Assembly: GCA_903901875.1 (NCBI GenBank)
Contig: CAIUSO010000054.1
Coordinates: 1 to 64,000, forward strand
Origin: an uncultured Geobacteraceae bacterium
GTDB taxonomy: Bacteria > Desulfobacterota > Desulfuromonadia > Geobacterales > Pseudopelobacteraceae
Reading direction: 5' to 3'
DNA: 64,000 nt
Shown in pieces: positions 7,033 through 17,589 of this stretch. The notes under the pieces were generated by a model, which searched no databases, was not told where the DNA came from, and saw only the letters and a program-made list of their open reading frames with translations. The position numbers and the translations under genes are program-made. Position 1 is the stretch's first letter, and each line of letters starts with the position of its first letter.

Positions 7033-8949
7033 TCAGTGAAAACTTCCGCCGGTAATGGCTTCTATCATGCTTGTGTCTACACTCTCCTCAACAAACGACG
7101 TTGGTAAAAAGAGGCGGAAAACTGTTCCAACACCCAATTCACTCTGCACATCAATTGTTCCACCATGCTGGGAGATAATGCCAAAGACGATGGCAAGGCC
7201 AAGACCGGTCCCCTTACCAACCTCTCTGGTCGTGTAAAAGGGGTCAAATATTCGGCGCCTTGTATCTTCATCCATACCATGCCCGGAATCTTTTACCGAA
7301 ATGATGACATACTCAACATCACGGCGTTTCACGTAGTGAGGGATGGCAGAGGACACAGAATCTGAGTTCACTATTTCTGCAGAGACAAGTAACGATCCCC
7401 CGTCAGGCATCGCATCCTGGGCATTGGTGGCGAGATGTGTCAGCACTTGTCTCATCTGAATGGGGTCAATTCCCATAATAATCGGTGTGTCAGGCAATGA
7501 CACCGAAATGAGTATATCCTTTCTGAGGAACTGGCTGATAAAGGAACAAGCTGTCGTTATCAAAGCGGAAAGGTCGATTTCTTCTCGCCGTATTGACAGC
7601 TTGCGACCATAGGCAACCATGCCGTAGGTGACATTTTTGGCAGCTTGAATCGCCGTCATAATATGAGCAATATTTTTCAATTGGTGCGGTTTCAGCTCCT
7701 CTATTTCCAGAAGGCTGGCGTACCCGCTGATCACACTGAGAATATTATTAAGCTCATGGGCCAAGCCACCTGCCAACTGCCCGATGGATTCGGCTCGTTG
7801 TGCATGAATCAGCTGATCTGTCAGGCTCTTTTTTTCAGTAATATCCTCTGCAGCTGAGATAAAATTAACAATTGAACCCTGATCGTCATAAATGGGAGAA
7901 ACAATTCGATGTATCCAAAAGGTAACACCATCCTTACGGTCACATCTGAGATCACCCTGCCATACCCCACCCGATATGATGGTTGACACCATATCAGAAA
8001 ACATCTGTGGCGGATTTTTATCAGACTGCAGAAAACTCCAGTTCCGTCCAATCGCCTCCTCGGCAGCGTAACCGGTAGTGGTAGTGAAGCTTTGATTAAC
8101 AAACTCGATGGTACCCAGCGCATCTGTGATGATGATGGATGCGGGATTTTGCGCAATTGCCTGTGACAGCTTTTTGAGGATCTTTTCCGAATTCTTGCGC
8201 CAGGTTATGTTCTCATGGGCTATGACCGCAAACACCTCACCAGCAACGTTGAAAGGGTTCACATGGCAGATGAACCAACGTTCTTCCGTTGGTGAATGGC
8301 AGGGGTATTCCAGGCTGAATTCCGACAAAGAACCATCAAGCACTCCCCGTATACCGTTGACATACGATCCAGACGACTGTCGTTCATCACCTTCTCCGAC
8401 AAGGCATACCGCAAGATAATTTGCCCCTACGCAACACTTTTCGTGAGAATCACTGTTTTCTCTGGCAAAGCTGTTCCAGGCCTGATTGGTGGTGACAATA
8501 ATCCCCTGTGTATTAATGACACAGATATGTGCCGGCAACCCATCCAGAATGGCTGCGCGGTGTGAAAGTTCCTTTTCTGCTTGTTTGAGCGCGGTAACAT
8601 CAGTAAACACGACCATTACTGTATCCACACCGGTCCTATGGATGCGTACCTCCAGTTCCAGGCTGTAGCGGGACATGATACCGGCGGCTACTGAGATATG
8701 GAGTTTATCACACACAACACCATGGGGGAGGTTAAAACCATTGATACGTTGCTGTATCTGCGGTGCTACGGTGGTAAGGACACTAAAAAGGTTGTCGAAA
8801 TTACTTGACGCAGCAAGGGGAGCAAGTAACCCGGCAGCTTGTGGCGTCATCATCTTGATATGGCCATCAAGTGCAATCTGTATCAGTGCCGTAGGCATCC
8901 AATACAGAAAGGACATTAATTCATTGTTGTCAGGTTCTTGCTCAATCAC
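7033..8949 (-). CDS. Multi-PAS sensor histidine kinase
   Basis: 638 aa. Domain order: PAS-like (about 11-125), PAS (130-255), PAS (262-382), HisKA with phospho-acceptor His398 in GQLAGGLAHELNN, then HATPase_c with G boxes (DSGHGMDEDTR; TTREVGKGTGLGLAIVFG). No membrane segments, so it is cytosolic. The first PAS-like region (FLYWMPTALIQIALDGHIK...LLAPLA) resembles the N-terminal part of the HD-GYP protein in the same operon. The start lies 8 nt inside the end of the PYP-like gene, so it probably acts with that small protein. No receiver domain is present. Confidence 0.88.
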   Translation of the reverse strand: MIEQEPDNNELMSFLYWMPTALIQIALDGHIKMMTPQAAGLLAPLAASSNFDNLFSVLTTVAPQIQQRINGFNLPHGVVCDKLHISVAAGIMSRYSLELEVRIHRTGVDTVMVVFTDVTALKQAEKELSHRAAILDGLPAHICVINTQGIIVTTNQAWNSFARENSDSHEKCCVGANYLAVCLVGEGDERQSSGSYVNGIRGVLDGSLSEFSLEYPCHSPTEERWFICHVNPFNVAGEVFAVIAHENITWRKNSEKILKKLSQAIAQNPASIIITDALGTIEFVNQSFTTTTGYAAEEAIGRNWSFLQSDKNPPQMFSDMVSTIISGGVWQGDLRCDRKDGVTFWIHRIVSPIYDDQGSIVNFISAAEDITEKKSLTDQLIHAQRAESIGQLAGGLAHELNNILSVISGYASLLEIEELKPHQLKNIAHIMTAIQAAKNVTYGMVAYGRKLSIRREEIDLSALITTACSFISQFLRKDILISVSLPDTPIIMGIDPIQMRQVLTHLATNAQDAMPDGGSLLVSAEIVNSDSVSSAIPHYVKRRDVEYVIISVKDSGHGMDEDTRRRIFDPFYTTREVGKGTGLGLAIVFGIISQHGGTIDVQSELGVGTVFRLFLPTSFVEESVDTSMIEAITGGSFH

Positions 8950-9328
8950 ACGAAAGTCGATGAACCAGTATATATCTTGTCTGATATTCCGCTGCAGCCA
9001 GCAAACGAAGCAGTACCTTTGTGGGACGCATTCGCCAGGTCAGGACGTAATCAATGGTCATATCCAATGGTGTGCCATTTTCCAATGCGTCCTCAAATCG
9101 TTGGGCAACGAGGAAATTGTTCATACACTGAGCAACGGAAGTAAAAAACGGATGCCCCAGGGCTTTGCCCGGTTCAAGAGAGGCAGCTTTTGATTCAAAG
9201 GTATTATATCGGCACACAAGAGTATCCTGATCAATACCGATGACACCAAAGTCAAGCTCATTCAAGCCAGCCTCATCAAGGTTTTCAAGCTGTTGTAGTA
9301 TGTCTTGTTGATTAAAAGAGATATTCAT
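8942..9328 (-). CDS. Photoactive-yellow-protein-like PAS protein (copy 1)
   Basis: 128 aa, single PAS domain. Read against Halorhodospira PYP, the framework is collinear: LDFGVIGIDQD, RYNTFES (Tyr41 and Glu45, the equivalents of PYP Tyr42 and Glu46), FFTSVAQCMNN (Cys68, the equivalent of chromophore Cys69), and MRPTKVLLRL (PYP has MTPTKVKVHM). PYP Thr50 and Arg52 are replaced (Ala, Leu). It may bind p-coumarate or another thioester-linked or redox ligand; light sensing is inference. A GAGGGAG-like RBS precedes the ATG. It overlaps the histidine kinase gene by 8 nt. Confidence 0.72.
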   Translation of the reverse strand: MNISFNQQDILQQLENLDEAGLNELDFGVIGIDQDTLVCRYNTFESKAASLEPGKALGHPFFTSVAQCMNNFLVAQRFEDALENGTPLDMTIDYVLTWRMRPTKVLLRLLAAAEYQTRYILVHRLSCD

Positions 9329-9417
9329 TCGTACTCCCTCTACACGAAGTCTTTCGCTTGATTTCTACAATACTTTTTTCTGCTTGTCTGTAGATATATT
9401 GCTACATTTAAATATTT

Positions 9418-11634
9418 TTATATATCATCAGTGTTGTCTATCACCTCTACCTCGCTGTTTGTAAGGGCCCGGTTGATATAATCATTGAGAATCGAAAAGT
9501 CGTACGGTTTTTGAATAAAACTGATATTTTCCTGGGATACTTCCTGCAGTAATTCGTGCCCGGTAGAATACCCGGAAGCAACAATATATTTAAGATCGTG
9601 CCTGATTTCCCGCATCTGTTCCATCATAACGAGTCCATTCATTCCGGGCATGACAAAATCGGTGAGTACCAGATCAAAATGCAGGGAAAAGTCCCGCGCA
9701 AATTCTAAAGCAACATGGGGCGTTGCTGCTTCATAAACCGTATGGCCGATCTTTTTCAGATAAAGTGCGGTAACTGTTCGTACCGCATCCTCATCTTCGA
9801 CGAGTAAAATGGAAGCACTGCACTGAGTGGGGATTTCAACACGTTCAGAAGCCACCTGTACCGGTATGTCGCACCGGGGAAAATAGATGTTGAATTCTGC
9901 TCCCTGACCGGGCTTACTTGCAACTTTCAACAGACAGTTATTCTGTCCTGCTATGCCGTAGACGGTGGCAAGACCAAGTCCGGTCCCTTTGCCGATCTCT
10001 TTTGTGGTAAAAAATGGTTCAAATATATGGGTAAGTGTGTCGCTATCCATGCCGGTTCCGGTATCGGTGAACGTGATCCTCACATAATCCCCCGGCAGGG
10101 CATTCAGGATGGTACCGCAGGCGTCACTGTCCAAGGTGATGTTTCTTGTTTCAATGGCAAAGGTTCCACCATCGGGCATGGCATCGCGCGCGTTGATGGC
10201 CAGATTCATAACGATCTGGTCCAACTGAGACGGATCAATCCGGATAGACCAGAGCTTGTCATCAGCGTCCAGGGTAATGGAAACATGTTCACCAATGAGG
10301 CGAGTCAGTGATTTAAGAGAGTCGGCTATGAGCAGGTTGGCATTCAGACTTTGCGGGCTCATCACCTCCTGCCGTGAAAAAGCCAGCAGCCGGTTCGTAA
10401 TATACCGCGAATGTTCGGCGGCCCGGTGGATCTCCTCCAGATATCCCATCATCTTGTTGCTGTCAAAAATATCCATCATGGCAAGATTGGAGTTACCCAG
10501 TATCACCATAAGTTTATTATTAAAATCATGGGCAATACCACCAGCAAGCTGTCCGATGGCCTCCATCTTTTGAGACTGGGATAGCTGCCGCGTGAGCTGT
10601 GTTCTAACATCCTCTGCTTGTCTCCGTTCCAACTCACCAGCCGCCCGAATAGCAACCAGTCTCAACACACTTTCAGCAAAGCCGGCATTCAAGAGTTTAT
10701 TGCGACCGATGACCGTAATCAGGCCAATCGGTTTCATATCATAACTCCAGAGAGTTATCCCCATGTAGCTTTCCGCCTGTAAGTCCTGCAACAGCGTATC
10801 ATTTGGAAAGAGCTTTTGGACTTCACAGGTGAAAACGGACACCTTTTTACTGACAACAGCACCACGGGGAGAGTCCTTCAGGGTGTACTCCGCAGAGTCT
10901 TTAAACTTACCATCGTGGTAAACAGCGAGAGATCGGGTGGAAAGGCTATCACCCAGAAGTCGGTCGATGCAGACGTAATCAATGTGGAGTGTTCTTGCGA
11001 GAAAAAGAGCCAAAGATTCAAAAATATCCTCGCCGGGGTGGAGGGAGCTTATCTGTAACAGGCAGGATTGAACGTCATCGATCTGTTTACGTTCGGAACC
11101 ATCAATAATGAACCATTCAGAGCCAACAATTTCACCGGAATAGACAACCGGTTGGGCAGAAAATATATGATAGCCTACGGTGCCATCCTTACGACGACAG
11201 GCAAATTGTCCGGAGGAAATCGGTACACCTCTCTTCAGTTCGGCAAGGTGAGCATTGACTGCTTTGGATTCACTCTCTACCTTCACCACAGTAAAGTGTT
11301 TTCCAAGAACTTCATCCCGTGATTCATAGCCATACATACGCAGCCAGGCATTATTAACTTCCTGTATATACCCTTCACAGTTGATATAAAAATAACCGGC
11401 TGGTATCTGTGTAATAATATTTCTGAGGTGAGTTACATGGTCACTCTTTTCTGAATTGGTTTGACGCAACTCATCGTTCTGCATTTCCAGTTCTTCCTGA
11501 TATACCTCAAGTTCATGCAACAAACGCCGTGAGTCTATGTGATTATTTAAGTCATTTGTTTCAACGCGAGGGTTGGCGACTCTTTCCTCGGCTTTTCTGC
11601 GAAGTTCAGCGGTAAACAATGGAATTTCACTCAT
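9418..11634 (-). CDS. Hybrid sensor histidine kinase (PAS-GAF-HisKA-HATPase-REC)
   Basis: 738 aa. It begins with a coiled coil (about 10-65), then PAS (about 68-180, IPAGYFYINCEGYIQEVNNAW), a GAF-like region (about 190-345), HisKA with His in GQLAGGIAHDFNN (about residue 370), HATPase_c (DTGTGMDSDT; KGTGLGLATVYG), and a C-terminal receiver with phospho-acceptor Asp in LVLTDFVMPGMNG. No transmembrane segments. Its start overlaps the HD-GYP gene stop by 4 nt (ATGA). The receiver likely serves as an internal phosphorelay or a decoy for the second kinase of the operon. Confidence 0.9.
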   Translation of the reverse strand: MSEIPLFTAELRRKAEERVANPRVETNDLNNHIDSRRLLHELEVYQEELEMQNDELRQTNSEKSDHVTHLRNIITQIPAGYFYINCEGYIQEVNNAWLRMYGYESRDEVLGKHFTVVKVESESKAVNAHLAELKRGVPISSGQFACRRKDGTVGYHIFSAQPVVYSGEIVGSEWFIIDGSERKQIDDVQSCLLQISSLHPGEDIFESLALFLARTLHIDYVCIDRLLGDSLSTRSLAVYHDGKFKDSAEYTLKDSPRGAVVSKKVSVFTCEVQKLFPNDTLLQDLQAESYMGITLWSYDMKPIGLITVIGRNKLLNAGFAESVLRLVAIRAAGELERRQAEDVRTQLTRQLSQSQKMEAIGQLAGGIAHDFNNKLMVILGNSNLAMMDIFDSNKMMGYLEEIHRAAEHSRYITNRLLAFSRQEVMSPQSLNANLLIADSLKSLTRLIGEHVSITLDADDKLWSIRIDPSQLDQIVMNLAINARDAMPDGGTFAIETRNITLDSDACGTILNALPGDYVRITFTDTGTGMDSDTLTHIFEPFFTTKEIGKGTGLGLATVYGIAGQNNCLLKVASKPGQGAEFNIYFPRCDIPVQVASERVEIPTQCSASILLVEDEDAVRTVTALYLKKIGHTVYEAATPHVALEFARDFSLHFDLVLTDFVMPGMNGLVMMEQMREIRHDLKYIVASGYSTGHELLQEVSQENISFIQKPYDFSILNDYINRALTNSEVEVIDNTDDI

Positions 11635-12761
11635 AATAGTACCTCCAATTCTGGCTGAACTTTGGAAGAATAATGTCGAGGGAATGACGACTGGAGATTT
11701 GGCTGGTCATGGTCGCAACTCTCACAAAGGGGGGCACGACAGTCGTAATGGGGGGTAATAAACTGCCGTATTTCTTCATACACTTCAACCAAAAGAGGGT
11801 CAAGATGGGTACCTTTCAACTCCAGAATCATGGCATCAGTTTTCTCGTGGGAATAGGCTTCCTTATAGACTCTCTTTGAGCGGAGTGCGTCATACACATC
11901 GGCCAATGCCATGATTCTGGCCGCCAACGGGATATCCTCTCCTTTCAGTCCGTCGGGATAGCCGGTACCATCCCACTTTTCGTGATGATAGTTGGCAATG
12001 AGCCGGCCCATATTTAAAAGATTGTTAGTGGGGAATTTTCTGATGACTTCAAGCAGGGTATTGGCTCCAATTATTGGATGCATCTTCATTTCATTAAATT
12101 CTTCGTCAGTGAGTTTACCTGGTTTCAGAAGAATGTTGTCCTTGATGCCAACCTTGCCGATATCGTGAAGGGGACTTGCCAAAAATATGTTCTGAATATA
12201 ATCTTCGGTAATAAGACCGTTGAAGCGCTCCATGGTAGAAAGTTTCTCCGCAAGCATTCGACAGATTTTCTGAACCCTTTCCAGATGTTTCCCGGTATCA
12301 TCATCACGTGATTCAGCCAATTTTGCCATGGCAAAAATGGTTGCCGAATGGGCTTCCAGCAAACCTTCATGCTGTTTTATCTCTTCAAGCTCCATGAGAA
12401 GAGTAATATTTTCAACTATGAAAACAAGTGTGTTCTCCCCGATACGCGAGCATTTGATACGAATATGTTTTATACCGCCCCGGCTGACACGTACATCCCG
12501 GTTATCGAGAAGATTTTTCTTTTTTGATGCAATCCCTTCAGCAATGGTTTTGGTGATGCTTTCGTCAAGGGTACTCAGTACGTCAAAAAAGTTGGGAATT
12601 TCAAGACCGTCATAGGTACCGATGAACGCGAGCAGTAATTGGGTCATATGGGGATTGATCTTCATAATCATTCCATCAGTATCCGTTTCGCAGATACCGA
12701 TGGGAGTCTGATAAATGAAGTTAAGAAGCTCTTCGTTAAGTTCAGCGTCTGATGAGCACAT
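11631..12761 (-). CDS. PAS-HD-GYP cyclic-di-GMP phosphodiesterase
   Basis: 376 aa. N-terminal PAS-like region (about 10-120, FIYQTPIGICETDTDG), then an HD-GYP domain at about 140-335 with HDIGKVGI, HHEKWDGTGYPDGLKGE and ARIMALADVYDAL, the metal and GYP motifs of c-di-GMP hydrolases. The C-terminal 40 residues are Cys/His-rich (PHYDCRAPLCESCDHDQ), which may bind a metal. The gene starts 20 nt inside the end of PYP-like copy 2, so the PYP-like protein probably controls it. It would lower c-di-GMP in the cytosol. Confidence 0.88.
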   Translation of the reverse strand: MCSSDAELNEELLNFIYQTPIGICETDTDGMIMKINPHMTQLLLAFIGTYDGLEIPNFFDVLSTLDESITKTIAEGIASKKKNLLDNRDVRVSRGGIKHIRIKCSRIGENTLVFIVENITLLMELEEIKQHEGLLEAHSATIFAMAKLAESRDDDTGKHLERVQKICRMLAEKLSTMERFNGLITEDYIQNIFLASPLHDIGKVGIKDNILLKPGKLTDEEFNEMKMHPIIGANTLLEVIRKFPTNNLLNMGRLIANYHHEKWDGTGYPDGLKGEDIPLAARIMALADVYDALRSKRVYKEAYSHEKTDAMILELKGTHLDPLLVEVYEEIRQFITPHYDCRAPLCESCDHDQPNLQSSFPRHYSSKVQPELEVLL

Positions 12762-13098
12762 AATTCAACGTGAGGTGCGGATGTTTGATAAGGCGCAGGG
12801 AAACGGGCACCGGCTTCATCTTGAAACTGAGAATATAAGGAATAATTTCATCAAGTTCGTCACGCTCCTCAAACTTCAGGGCAACCAGATAATTATTCAT
12901 GCAGGGTGCAACATCGATAAAAAGATGGCTGCCAACAACCGTCTCTGCCCTCAAGCCGGATAATAGCGATTCGGTCTGGTTATAAAAAACAACAACACAA
13001 TTCTCATCAAATCCAATGACACCGAAATTGGCTGTATCTAGCTCGTTCGGCGATACGGTTTCGATAAGAGCAATCAGATCACTATGATCGAATGTCAT
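12742..13098 (-). CDS. Photoactive-yellow-protein-like PAS protein (copy 2)
   Basis: 118 aa from the ATG at 13098, chosen because CGGAGG lies 6-10 nt upstream. An in-frame start 21 nt earlier has no better RBS. Key residues by PYP alignment: Tyr39 and Glu43 in FYNQTES, Cys66 in LFIDVAPCMNN (PYP has FFKDVAPC), and MKPVPVSLRL in place of MTPTKVKVHM. The VAPC match around the chromophore cysteine is closer to true PYP than copy 1. It is the first gene of a five-gene operon and overlaps the HD-GYP gene by 20 nt. Whether it carries p-coumarate is unknown; no TAL or coumarate ligase gene is in the window. Confidence 0.75.
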   Translation of the reverse strand: MTFDHSDLIALIETVSPNELDTANFGVIGFDENCVVVFYNQTESLLSGLRAETVVGSHLFIDVAPCMNNYLVALKFEERDELDEIIPYILSFKMKPVPVSLRLIKHPHLTLNYVLIRR

Positions 13099-13142: not shown

Positions 13143-13171
13143 AATATACCATCTGTCTGGTGAATCGTCAA
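13143..13171 (-). promoter_or_regulatory. Sigma-70-like promoter of the PYP signalling operon
   Basis: On the minus strand, TTGACG (13171-13166), a 17-nt spacer, and TATATT (13148-13143). It lies about 45 nt upstream of the PYP copy 2 start and between it and hpnH, so the signalling operon has its own promoter. Confidence 0.65.
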
Positions 13172-13193: not shown

Positions 13194-14192
13194 TTACGTC
13201 AAGTTCCAAATCATCATTTCAAGAATATCCCTCCAGCTTTTACCGATTTCCGCAACAACGGTCGGTTCAAAACCGCAGTGCATCATACATTGGGCACAAC
13301 GGGTATCCCTGCCAACACCATACCGGTCCCAATCGGTGCGGGACATCATCTCAGCAAAAGTAGCGTAATGATTGTCAGTAATCAGATAACAGGGTGCTTT
13401 CCAGCCCTGGGGATTGCGGGTGGGATTACCCCAGGGGGTGCACGTAAGTGCTTTCTCCCCTTTCAAAAATCTGAGGTACATCGGTGTGGAAAAGAAACGG
13501 TGCTTTTTGCTCATTTCATACACCGTGATAAATTTCTTTTCTATTTCCTGCCGTTCCATAAACAGCTTCTCACCAACCGCTTCATAGCCAAAGCCGGGTG
13601 CCACCAAAATTCCATCAACGCCGATTTCCTCAAGCTGGCTGAACAGCATGTCAATCTCGACGAGATCGGTCTCACGAAAAATTGTGGTGTTGGTGCATAC
13701 GCGGAAACCCCGTCTCTTAGCAGCAATAATTGCTGAAATGGCAGTTTTGAAAGCACCTCTTCGCTCAAGTATCCGGTCATGGGTCTCCTCAAGCCCGTCA
13801 ATATGGATATTGAGTGTCAGGTTTGGATGTGACGGCAGGGTAGCAAGGGCATTTTCAAGAAGAATGCCGTTTGTACAGAGATAGATATGCTTGCCCCGCT
13901 CAAGTACGGCAGTAACTAATTCATTCAGGTGTGGATAGAGAAAAGGTTCACCGCCGGTAATGGTAACGACCGGAGCCGGACACTCATCCACCGACGCCAG
14001 ACACTCCTCAAGTGACATCATTGCTTGAATGGTATCGGCGTATTCCCGGATCCGGCCGCACCCGGAACAGGCAAGGTTGCAGAGATGGGTCGGCTCAAGC
14101 ATCAGAACAAGGGGATAGCGGGTAGTTTTGGAGAACTTGTTACGGATGATGTATCTGGTCAGATCGTAGTTGAGACGAAGGGGAAAGCGCAT
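13194..14192 (-). CDS. hpnH: HpnH, hopanoid biosynthesis radical SAM protein
   Basis: 332 aa radical SAM enzyme with the cluster motif CNLACSGC near residue 40, TITGGEPFLYP, and a C-terminal Cys set (CAQCMMHCGFEPT). This arrangement and length match HpnH, which adds an adenosyl group to diploptene, the first step of C35 hopanoid side-chain extension. The start has GAAGGA upstream. No other hpn genes are in the window. It could share a transcript with the liv genes upstream (60 nt gap) but probably stands alone. Confidence 0.88.
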   Translation of the reverse strand: MRFPLRLNYDLTRYIIRNKFSKTTRYPLVLMLEPTHLCNLACSGCGRIREYADTIQAMMSLEECLASVDECPAPVVTITGGEPFLYPHLNELVTAVLERGKHIYLCTNGILLENALATLPSHPNLTLNIHIDGLEETHDRILERRGAFKTAISAIIAAKRRGFRVCTNTTIFRETDLVEIDMLFSQLEEIGVDGILVAPGFGYEAVGEKLFMERQEIEKKFITVYEMSKKHRFFSTPMYLRFLKGEKALTCTPWGNPTRNPQGWKAPCYLITDNHYATFAEMMSRTDWDRYGVGRDTRCAQCMMHCGFEPTVVAEIGKSWRDILEMMIWNLT

Positions 14193-14252: not shown

Positions 14253-14996
14253 TTACCGCTCCCACATTTCTTTTTTATCCTTGCCGAGGTAAGCACGCTT
14301 AACTTCGGCATTTTCTAACAGCTCATCAGCCGGTCCCTCAAGGATAACTTTACCGGTTTCGAGTACATAGCCACGGTCAGCCAGTTTGAGTGCCGCCTTG
14401 GCATTCTGCTCAACCAGCAATATGGTTGTTCCCTGTTCCTGCCTCAGACGCTCCAGAACACGAAATATTTCCTGCACGACAAGTGGTGCCAAGCCCATGG
14501 AAGGCTCATCCAGCAAGAGCATTTTGGGATTGGCCATCAGAGCCCGTCCAATGGCAAGCATCTGCTGTTCACCACCGGACATGGTGCCAGCCAACTGCTT
14601 ACGCCGTTCTTCCAGTCGGGGGAAAAGGGTGAAAATGGTATCCATATCCCGGTGAATGGATTTTTTCCCCTCCCTGCTTCGATAGCGCAGATAGGCACCC
14701 AGTTCAAGGTTATCTTCGACCGAAAGCGGTTTAAAAACCTGACGCCCCTCGGGAACCTGAGAAATACCCCGTTGAACAATTTTATCCGGTGTGAGGGAGA
14801 CTACCGTTTCCTTACAAAACAAGATTTCCCCCGCCGAAGCCGGAGTCACCCCCGATATGGTATTCAAAATTGTGGTTTTACCGGCACCATTGGCACCAAT
14901 CAACGTCACAATCTCACCGGCAGCCAGATGAAGGGACACATTCTTCAACGCATGGACTTTGCCGTAATAGGTATTGATATTTTTCAGCCTCAGCAT
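14253..14996 (-). CDS. livF: LivF, branched-chain amino acid ABC transporter ATPase
   Basis: 247 aa ABC ATPase. Walker A GANGAGKTT at about residue 36, signature TMSGGEQQMLAIGRAL, Walker B LLLDEPSMGLAP, and the H-loop region TILLVEQNAK. Length and motifs fit LivF. It is the last gene of the liv transporter and abuts livG at the same base (14996). Confidence 0.92.
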   Translation of the reverse strand: MLRLKNINTYYGKVHALKNVSLHLAAGEIVTLIGANGAGKTTILNTISGVTPASAGEILFCKETVVSLTPDKIVQRGISQVPEGRQVFKPLSVEDNLELGAYLRYRSREGKKSIHRDMDTIFTLFPRLEERRKQLAGTMSGGEQQMLAIGRALMANPKMLLLDEPSMGLAPLVVQEIFRVLERLRQEQGTTILLVEQNAKAALKLADRGYVLETGKVILEGPADELLENAEVKRAYLGKDKKEMWER

Positions 14997-15751
14997 CAGT
15001 CATCATCTCCGAGATAGGCGGCAATGACTTCAGGACTTTCCTGGATTTCCCGTGGAGTTCCCTCAGCCAGTTTTTTACCGAGATTGAGTACCACAATGCG
15101 GTCGCAAATATCCATCACCAGTTCCATATCATGTTCCACAAGAACCACCGTAATGCCCAGATCCCTGATCCGTTTGATCAGACTGGCCAATCCAAGTGTC
15201 TCCTGACTGTTAAGTCCTGCGGCAGGTTCATCCATTAATATGATACGAGGCCCCACGGCCAAGGCACGGGCAATTTCCAGCAGGCGTCCCTTACCAAAGG
15301 GAAGACTTCCCGCCGTATGGTCGGCCAGATCTAAAATTCCCGTAAAATCAAGCCATTTGAGTGCTCCGGCGCAGATACGATGCTCTTCCGTAATGCTCCA
15401 GGGCATTTTCAAGGCACAGGCCAGTAATCCGCTGGTGCTCTTAGTATGCATGCCCACCATGACATTTTCCAACACGGTCATAGCTCCAAACAGTTCGATA
15501 TTCTGGAAGGTGCGAACCATTGCACGCCGTGCCAGCTTCTCTGGCGGCAGTCCGGTAACATCCTTTCCCTCAAGCGTGACCGTGCCGGCGCTCTGTGTGT
15601 AGATTCCGGTAATAATGTTAAACAGAGTGGTTTTTCCGGCACCATTCGGTCCGATAACACCGGTTATATCACCCTTCCGGATCGAAAAAGAGACGGAATC
15701 CAGGGCGGTAACACCACCGAAAATCTGGGTAATACCGGAAACCTCAAGCAT
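14996..15751 (-). CDS. livG: LivG, branched-chain amino acid ABC transporter ATPase
   Basis: 251 aa ABC ATPase with Walker [13 protein letters not shown], a LivG-type long insert after the Q-loop (about 95-135), signature [16 protein letters not shown] (degenerate, as is common in LivG), Walker [14 protein letters not shown] and [12 protein letters not shown]. It overlaps livM by 8 nt and is the partner of LivF. Confidence 0.92.
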
Positions 15752-16706
15752 GACCAGGCTCCCCTTTTTTTGACTTCACCAGATATCGGTAGAGCGACGG
15801 AATACCACGAACCAATCCACCCGGCATGTACATCACCATTACCATCAGAAGTCCGCCATAGATGATAATATCATAATCGTTGGCACCCCGGAGAAACTCG
15901 GGAAGCAGCGTCAGCAGAGCTGCACCAAGAAAAGAACCATAGATGCTACCTAAACCTCCGATTACCACCATGGTCAACAGTTCTATGGAAAAATTGAAGC
16001 CAAAGGATGCGGGGGAGATAAAGGTCATGGTATGGGCGTAGAGACTGCCTGCCAGTGACGAAATTACCGCAGAAAGAGCGAATATCTGTACTTTGAGAAT
16101 TCGGGAATTAACCCCCAAAACCCTGGCAGCGACCTCCGAATCATGGACGGCGCGGAGAGCCCGGCCAACCCGTGAACCGGCAAGATTAAGGGAAAAAATC
16201 ATCACAAGCAACGTGGCGGTCCAGATCAGGTAATAATTTTTCACATCGGAGTCAAAGGTAATTCCGGCTATTTTCAGGTTTGGTATGCCGGATAACCCGG
16301 AGGGGCCACCGGTCAATTCAACGGTTTCGTTGAAGACGATGTATATGATAATGCCGAGGCCAAGGGTCGCCATTGCCAGATAGTGACCTTTAAGTTTCAG
16401 AATCGGGAAGCCGATCAGAAAGGCCATACCACCCACCACCGCAGCAGCCAGCGGCATGGCAAACCAGGGATCAAGAGCGTAGGTGGTGGTCAAAATACCG
16501 GAAAGATAGGCTCCCAATCCAAAGAAACCGGCGTGGCCGAGGGAAATCTGTCCTGCATAGCCAAGGAGGAGGTTGAGGGCAATGGAGAGCATGGTATTAA
16601 TACCGACAAATACCAGCACATTCATCAGGTATCCGCCACTGAACAGCTGGGGAGCCAGCAGAACCAGCAGGGAAAAGCCGATAAAAAGCAGAAGATCACG
16701 TTTCAT
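15744..16706 (-). CDS. livM: LivM, branched-chain amino acid permease
   Basis: 320 aa from the start [11 protein letters not shown] longer in-frame version would run 87 nt into livH and is less likely. Eight to ten hydrophobic segments are visible, with [22 protein letters not shown] and the cytoplasmic EAA-like loop [20 protein letters not shown]. Inner-membrane permease subunit pairing with LivH. One base separates this start from the livH stop. Confidence 0.9.
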
Positions 16707-16707
16707 G

Positions 16708-17589
16708 TCAGACCCGCTCCGAATCGGCTTTACCAAAGAGCCCCTGGGGCCTGATAAAGAGAATGAGAAGCAGGATGATAAAGGCAATTGCATCCTTGTA
16801 CCCGGAGGAAATCAGACCGGCCCCCAGTGATTCCAACACTCCGAGTATCAGACCACCGATAACCGTGGAGATACCGCTGCTCATTCCTCCGATAATGGCT
16901 GCACAGAAACCTTTCAGCCCCAGCATGACCCCCACATCGTAGGCGGTCATGGTGAGCGGTGCGACAATGATACCGGCGACCGCCCCCATGGCCGAACTGA
17001 TGATGAAAGAGAAGAGAACCATGCGGCGCACATCAATACCGACAAGTCCTGCGGCACGGCGGTTGTAGGCACAGGCACGCATCGCTTTTCCGCTGATGGT
17101 ATGGTAAAAATAAATCTTGTTAATAATGATAATAATCAACGTAATTGCCAGAATCCAGAGATGCTGGGGAAGAATCGTCGCTCCCCCCACCGGGATCGGC
17201 GTGTCACCAGAAAAAGGGGGGATAGCGTGGGTGTCCTTACCCCACACCAGCATGGCCAGACCGCGAATCAGAATACTGCCGCCAATGGTGATAATAACGA
17301 GGTTTATCGGTGTTGGCTGCTTAAGTGGCCGGATGGCCAGTCGCTCAAAGAGTATTCCTATCACCGTTGAAAAGGCAACAGAACAGGGAATTGCAGCCCA
17401 GAGTGGCAACTTGAGCAGCTCAAGAGATGACAGGGTTAAGAGCCCGCCCAGCATGACAAACTCACCCTGAGCAAAATTTATGATGCCGGTGGCATTATAA
17501 ATGATGGAAAAACCGATGCCGATAAGCGCATAGATGGCACCGGTTGAGAGCCCGGACAACGTATATTGGAGCAACTGATCGAACTGCAT
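16708..17589 (-). CDS. livH: LivH, branched-chain amino acid permease
   Basis: 293 aa polytopic inner-membrane protein starting MQFDQLLQYTLSGLSTGAIY, typical of LivH. It carries IINFAQGEFVMLGG and the coupling loop GKAMRACAYNRRAAGLVGID. First gene after the solute-binding protein genes, with a strong hairpin in the gap. Confidence 0.92.
   Translation of the reverse strand: MQFDQLLQYTLSGLSTGAIYALIGIGFSIIYNATGIINFAQGEFVMLGGLLTLSSLELLKLPLWAAIPCSVAFSTVIGILFERLAIRPLKQPTPINLVIITIGGSILIRGLAMLVWGKDTHAIPPFSGDTPIPVGGATILPQHLWILAITLIIIIINKIYFYHTISGKAMRACAYNRRAAGLVGIDVRRMVLFSFIISSAMGAVAGIIVAPLTMTAYDVGVMLGLKGFCAAIIGGMSSGISTVIGGLILGVLESLGAGLISSGYKDAIAFIILLLILFIRPQGLFGKADSERV

Follow-up and report, generated by a model that had tools for sequence, protein, structure and literature searches.

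The signal chain of free-standing photoactive yellow protein (PYP) has been called an important gap (Dohmen et al., 2025; PMC12826048), and the partner of the Halorhodospira halophila PYP is stated to remain unidentified (PMC13250908, 2026). Several described systems come close. Proteins of clade C of the PYP family, called uncharacterised by Xing, Gumerov and Zhulin (2022; PMC9664959), are single-domain proteins encoded beside signalling genes, with GGDEF proteins as the reported neighbours. Dohmen et al. (PMC12826048) describe pyp operons with GGDEF/EAL or HisKA/HATPase genes, two of which contain BLUF. In Ppr of Rhodospirillum centenum, a PYP domain is tied to a histidine kinase within one fused PYP-phytochrome-histidine kinase protein (PMC9664959). 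Here we describe an operon of an uncultured Geobacteraceae bacterium, in a 64,000-nucleotide stretch of contig CAIUSO010000054.1 (assembly GCA_903901875.1; hereafter the window), in which two PYP homologues, PYP1 and PYP2, are each followed by an enzyme of signal transduction, and in which both enzymes begin with the same partner domain of about 125 residues. We coin the label PPD for this domain.

On the minus strand, hpnH is followed by the genes of the operon, in the order PYP2, HD-GYP gene, hybrid kinase, PYP1 and histidine kinase. PYP2 (12742-13098; 117 amino acids from its ATG) precedes a predicted cyclic di-GMP (c-di-GMP) phosphodiesterase of the HD-GYP type (11631-12761), and PYP1 (8942-9328; 128 amino acids) precedes a histidine kinase (7033-8949) with PPD, PAS domains, HisKA and HATPase. 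Between the two pairs lies a hybrid histidine kinase with a receiver domain (9418-11634), in which the PPD profile gave no match. The start of the HD-GYP gene overlaps the end of PYP2 by 20 nucleotides (nt), the hybrid kinase overlaps the HD-GYP gene by 4 nt, and the GTG start of the last kinase overlaps the end of PYP1 by 8 nt; these overlaps suggest that each sensor is translationally coupled to the enzyme downstream of it. The arrangement differs from Ppr in that the genes are separate and overlapping and the enzymes carry a receiver-like domain, and from the operons of Dohmen et al. (PMC12826048) in that kinases there are mostly upstream of pyp and here downstream.

A preliminary description of the window, made from its sequence, had claimed two PYP-like proteins in one signalling operon. 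This is confirmed: both open reading frames (ORFs) lie where that description had placed them, and both match the TIGR02373 (photo_yellow) model over almost their whole length (E = 6e-21 for PYP1 and 3.9e-16 for PYP2). The scores of 74.8 and 59.3 bits, respectively, are under the equivalog cut-off of 143 of that model, which covers about 20% of PYP homologues (PMC9664959). The best sequence match in the PDB was PYP itself for PYP1 (1gsx, E = 3.7e-14) and the PYP of Ppr for PYP2 (1mzu, E = 7.4e-10). The predicted structure of PYP1 has a mean pLDDT (a measure of local model confidence) of 79, with 63 over residues 61-70 by the Cys, its least sure part, and is closest to PYP structures, with a template-modelling (TM) score of 0.86 and a Z-score of about 18; PYP entries reach Z 18.6, and the first other PAS domain has 11.8. 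The comparison of predicted models with PYP that the preliminary description had proposed thus indicates a PYP fold for PYP1. PYP2 matches the family over its length at the level of sequence. Identity to H. halophila PYP, with which the fold and the three active-site residues are shared, is about 26-29%. The same genome encodes a third PYP (G000:C114:46168-46527), which had gone unremarked.

Both proteins fit the already described clade C in sequence: Met100 is present, and Phe92, Phe96 and Trp119 are lost, as reported for that clade together with retention of Tyr42, Glu46 and Cys69 (PMC9664959). A quick tree of 99 sequences separated 83 clade-C sequences from 16 canonical ones, including that of H. 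halophila, with support of 100. PYP1 and the third PYP fell inside a group of 17 (support 96) with forms from Sphaerotilus and Leptothrix, and PYP2 stood within clade C on a long branch (2.03), its position being unsure. Among the best 80 of 220 confirmed stretches, which we retained from a scan for relatives, the nearest named relatives of PYP1 are in Geobacteraceae metagenome-assembled genomes (MAGs; up to 73% identity), followed by Glaciimonas (65%) and a Desulfobacteraceae MAG (63%); the nearest sequences outside the phylum belong to Burkholderiales, which also include Leptothrix, Sphaerotilus and Massilia. As to viral relatives, 77 stretches fitted a pattern, and none was confirmed. A profile search found small PYPs in 5 of the 141 genomes of the order, four of them from one genus, and this patchy spread suggests horizontal transfer. 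PYP had been recorded from the phylum before, Thermodesulfobacteriota being listed with under 1% of PYPs (PMC12826048).

The residues of the active site are kept. Tyr42, Glu46 and Cys69 correspond to Tyr41, Glu45 and Cys68 in PYP1 and to Tyr39, Glu43 and Cys66 in PYP2, as the preliminary description had it, so that both proteins carry these residues in a family defined by Cys69 (PMC9664959). Tyr42, Asn43, Glu46 and Cys69 are invariant in all 95 rows of an alignment of relatives (88 without the 7 that repeat contigs). The Cys was part of one of the two scan patterns; the 19 rows with a residue other than Met at position 70, which cannot match that pattern, all retain this Cys. The loss of Cys from orthologues that would have spoken against a PYP was thus not seen, and a profile search of the order yielded 11 full small PYPs, none of which lacks Tyr, Glu or Cys. 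Thr50 and Arg52 are indeed replaced, by Ala and Leu in PYP1 and by Ser and Leu in PYP2. These changes had been read as a hint of another function; position 50 is Ala in 84 and position 52 Leu in 86 of the 95 rows, and because Ala50 and Leu52 are also the consensus of 984 published PYPs (PMC12826048), they are no sign of one.

The domain shared by the two enzymes, which the preliminary description had left unremarked, is found at 8560-8949 in the kinase after PYP1 and, by the PPD profile, at 12372-12761 in the HD-GYP protein after PYP2; a diguanylate cyclase of Massilia that follows the PYP of that genus has it as well. The PPD of the kinase gave no match in Pfam (E ≤ 0.01) or NCBIfam (E ≤ 0.001), and a PPD from another locus (L067:8391-8780) likewise matched no NCBIfam family (E ≤ 0.001); residues 12-43 of the HD-GYP protein gave a sub-threshold PAS match (E = 0.086). 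The predicted structure of PPD (mean pLDDT 86.6) has a PAS fold. Foldseek matched it to PAS domains (best E = 2e-5), and VIA-align gave Z up to 10.7 with a root-mean-square deviation of 2.8 over 114 residues, PAS families missing from its rows not being taken as excluded. At the level of sequence profiles, the PDB returned one weak match, a VicK-like kinase (E = 0.02). We also asked whether PPD might be a degenerate PYP; the two profiles align at equivalent PAS positions with a probability of 1.1, and close kinship is unsupported.

PPD and clade-C PYP co-occur almost perfectly. Eighty-five copies of clade-C PYP were compared, after omission of 7 loci that repeat contigs, PYP hits of fewer than 60 profile positions and 5 canonical PYP copies. 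PPD begins within 273 nt after 83 of the 85, with a median gap of 20 nt; the profile had been built from 18 of these pairs, and the count without them is 65 of 67. No PPD directly follows any of the 5 canonical copies, which come from the same set of loci. Fifty-two copies, almost all of them from Burkholderiales, have a second PPD within 3 kb, not counting L038, where a single PPD is split by a frame break. In the order, PPD occurs in 5 of 141 genomes, and these are identical to the five with a small PYP (Fisher p = 2e-9). In the family of Glaciimonas, for which 294 genomes were sampled from a larger group, 59 genomes have a TIGR02373 hit (1e-8), 59 have PPD, and 58 have both; the exceptions are G255, with PPD alone, and G281, with a weak PYP hit alone (37.3 bits in a frame of 687 amino acids), which we did not count as a small PYP.

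The output parts attached to PPD are exchanged between lineages. The window has a histidine kinase and an HD-GYP protein, and Burkholderiales have GGDEF and EAL; among second-PPD proteins, that of L049 is GGDEF/EAL by Pfam and the others were typed by motif only. In Pfam, 12 of 13 PPD proteins from Geobacterales and Desulfobacteraceae are histidine kinases and the remaining one is the HD-GYP protein of the window. The latter has the HD and HHExxDGxGYP motifs, which we take to be those of HD-GYP phosphodiesterases, and a Pfam HD_5 match at E = 2.6e-28. The PYP family is known, and its operon with kinase and HD-GYP outputs in Geobacterales is new; the clade-C hosts and outputs reported earlier (PMC9664959) were different ones. 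The shared domain is absent from the Results and Discussion of that paper and from the sections consulted of PMC12826048, the main text of which contains none of the words HD-GYP, Geobacter and Burkholderi, and we found no description of it in the papers retrieved, as far as their text was available.

Because PPD is found almost only with PYP, it may be the receiver of the PYP signal. We consider it reasonably probable that PPD is a dedicated receiver of free-standing clade-C PYPs, a socket into which histidine kinases, HD-GYP proteins, diguanylate cyclases and EAL proteins can be swapped. The best explanation of the operon, which we hold with moderate confidence, is that clade-C PYPs sense light and act through PPD effectors. 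The operon would then consist of two sensor-effector pairs, each with a clade-C PYP as sensor and with an effector made of an N-terminal PAS-fold receiver, PPD, and a C-terminal catalytic part; PYP1 would signal to the histidine kinase and PYP2 to the HD-GYP protein and hence to c-di-GMP breakdown. Cys69 would carry a p-coumaroyl-type thioester, blue light would isomerise this chromophore, and the altered PYP surface would bind or release PPD, thereby switching the kinase or the phosphodiesterase. The output might be a change in phosphorylation and in c-di-GMP level, and so in attachment or motility, as a light response in a redox gradient. Twenty-six positions separate clade C from canonical PYPs, 8 of them at residues 72-82 and 8 at 107-121, and these two segments are candidates for the docking face.

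If this is true, a conserved partner defined by sequence would be known for a single-domain PYP for the first time. Encoded after almost all of the clade-C PYPs that we examined, PPD is a concrete candidate partner, and as a module with outputs already exchanged in nature it could be useful for optogenetics. A further question is the role of light sensing in Geobacter-like bacteria.

Several observations weigh against light sensing through PPD, and the first concern the chromophore. Both the chromophore and the light response of clade-C PYPs are inferred from sequence. The preliminary description had proposed a check of the genome for chromophore genes, and the outcome was negative: the genome of the window (99.76% complete) has no match to the lyase family PF00221 and only weak, partial matches to the pyp-type ligase TIGR02372 (24.2 and 21.5 bits), which lie in general acyl-CoA ligases, so that neither of these chromophore genes of pyp operons is recognisable in it. 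We looked for the ligase in 50 clade-C hosts, namely 49 of 75 loci and the genome of the window, and found a full-length copy (over 200 bits; that of G177 in two pieces) in 22. These were 22 of 44 hosts from other groups and 0 of 6 from Geobacterales and Desulfobacteraceae. In PYP1, moreover, Pro68 is replaced by Gln and Tyr98 by Trp, oddities that it has in common with most Geobacterales copies.

The lack of lyase and pyp-type ligase in the genome of the window, and of that ligase in the 6 hosts, suits a chemical sensor, in which the Cys of Geobacterales PYPs would be loaded with a hydroxycinnamoyl or other aromatic thioester, formed from plant-derived phenolics by a general CoA ligase, and loading, not light, would signal to the PPD effectors. 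We regard this as unlikely, although general acyl-CoA ligases are present and Tyr, Glu and Cys are retained. The conserved pair of Tyr42 and Glu46 tunes the photocycle in known PYPs, and uptake of external p-coumarate, which has been suggested as a supply route (PMC12826048), would supply a light sensor equally well. In 113 published pyp operons, the lyase was found in 7 and the ligase in 42 (PMC12826048). Relatives, in addition, retain a dedicated ligase beside clade-C genes. In the Glaciimonas family, TIGR02372 is found in 35 of 58 PYP hosts and in 1 of 236 other genomes, and in 19 of the 43 genomes whose sole intact PYP belongs to clade C, no more than 1.4 kb separates it from the clade-C gene; we left out G269, where the ligase is 1.8 kb away from one PYP hit and next to fragments of a different PYP. 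Where the ligase is retained, therefore, its position beside clade-C genes and its near-restriction to PYP hosts (35 of the 36 genomes with it) make a p-coumaroyl-type chromophore very likely for clade C. A BLUF gene that adjoins one PYP/PPD-kinase pair also points to light rather than to a chemical signal: in G107, a relative from the same genus, it (PF04940, 1.1e-30; L039:12169-12588, G107:C31) starts 47 nt after the pair. BLUF-like stretches are also found near PYPs in L106, L108 and L087. As separate observations, a canonical second PYP stands beside a pyp-type ligase in six Burkholderiales loci (L049, L050, L111, L118, L126 and L127), and clade C and the ligase accompany every TIGR02373 hit that exceeds the cut-off in the Glaciimonas family (15 genomes).

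The remaining points against light sensing through PPD concern the pairing. Two close relatives of PYP1, in L041 and L044, have no PPD after them, the sequence of L044 ending 284 nt past the PYP. PPD kinases without a PYP in the stretch around them occur at G000:C31, G107:C5, G107:C86 and G110:C85. The pairing is therefore not one to one, and such kinases may possibly act with a PYP in trans. The genome counts treat related genomes as independent and, because the searches scored the best 10-30 candidates per genome, some absences may be missed; a phylum-wide sample of 398 genomes, in which PPD was found in 2, both PYP hosts, was searched for PPD only. Finally, distances among PYPs and among PPDs correlate (r = 0.80 for 82 pairs; r = 0.95 for the 10 pairs from Geobacterales and Desulfobacteraceae), which speaks for the pairing, but inheritance as a cassette would also yield co-occurrence and correlated distances, which are thus no proof of contact.

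PYP and PPD proteins might accordingly travel as a mobile cassette without touching, PPD being an ordinary PAS domain with a ligand of its own. The spread over 5 of 141 genomes, the kinases without an adjoining PYP and the correlated distances all fit such a cassette. We nevertheless judge it distinctly improbable: genomes without PYP hardly ever have PPD, the domain stays in place while the output domain is swapped, and the gene overlaps suggest coupled translation. That the Cys is instead a redox or thiol switch without a chromophore, as the preliminary description had suggested and as might suit an anaerobe, is very improbable, since the one point for such a non-light role is the lack of recognised chromophore genes, to which the Gln beside the Cys of PYP1 can be added, whereas the alignments show no second conserved Cys nearby, and neither Tyr42 nor Glu46, which are both invariant, would be required by a redox Cys on its own.

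The objection that a sediment bacterium has no use for blue light is doubtful. Related PYPs are carried by MAGs, labelled E14, MJ-2014, A-4 and VK3, from the same genus or order; MJ, VK and the label Loc of the Desulfobacteraceae MAG presumably stand for Mekkojarvi, Valkea Kotinen and Loclat of a stratified-lake dataset, and these relatives seem to come from lake water columns (PMC8121793). We looked for gas vesicles as a sign of planktonic life and discarded them, as PF00741 was found in 6 of the 141 genomes and in none of the 5 PYP hosts. Photolyase was uninformative, with PF00875 in 2 of 5 PYP hosts and in 32 of 136 other genomes; a match to this DNA photolyase family lies at G000:C55:82238-82717 in the genome of the window. 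Brown lake water absorbs blue light strongly, and any use of light would therefore be near the surface.

The genome of the window has 3 PYPs and 5 PPDs in all. One of these PPDs (G000:C23:1950-2327; L150) has an internal stop and looks broken; its contig, of 6.6 kb, carries an ORF that by eye resembles a transposase. Within the operon, a ggagg sequence precedes the ATG of PYP2, which makes a longer form from a TTG start (up to 13119) less likely. A promoter-like sequence before PYP2 (13143-13171, minus strand; 10 of 12 positions, TG before the second hexamer) is weak, because the region has fewer such sites (7) than shuffled sequences (11.4). Rfam gave no match in the window at gathering thresholds. 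With a GC content of 0.44-0.48, as against 0.47-0.55 elsewhere in the window, the operon genes do not clearly stand out as recently inserted. The next gene upstream of the operon, on the same strand, is hpnH (13194-14192, minus strand; adenosyl-hopene transferase, TIGR03470), a neighbourhood that may be coincidence. Branched-chain amino acid transport genes lie nearby at 14253-17589, and G110 has matching genes (80-89% identity; L043:347-3671) close to another PYP pair, with other genes in between.

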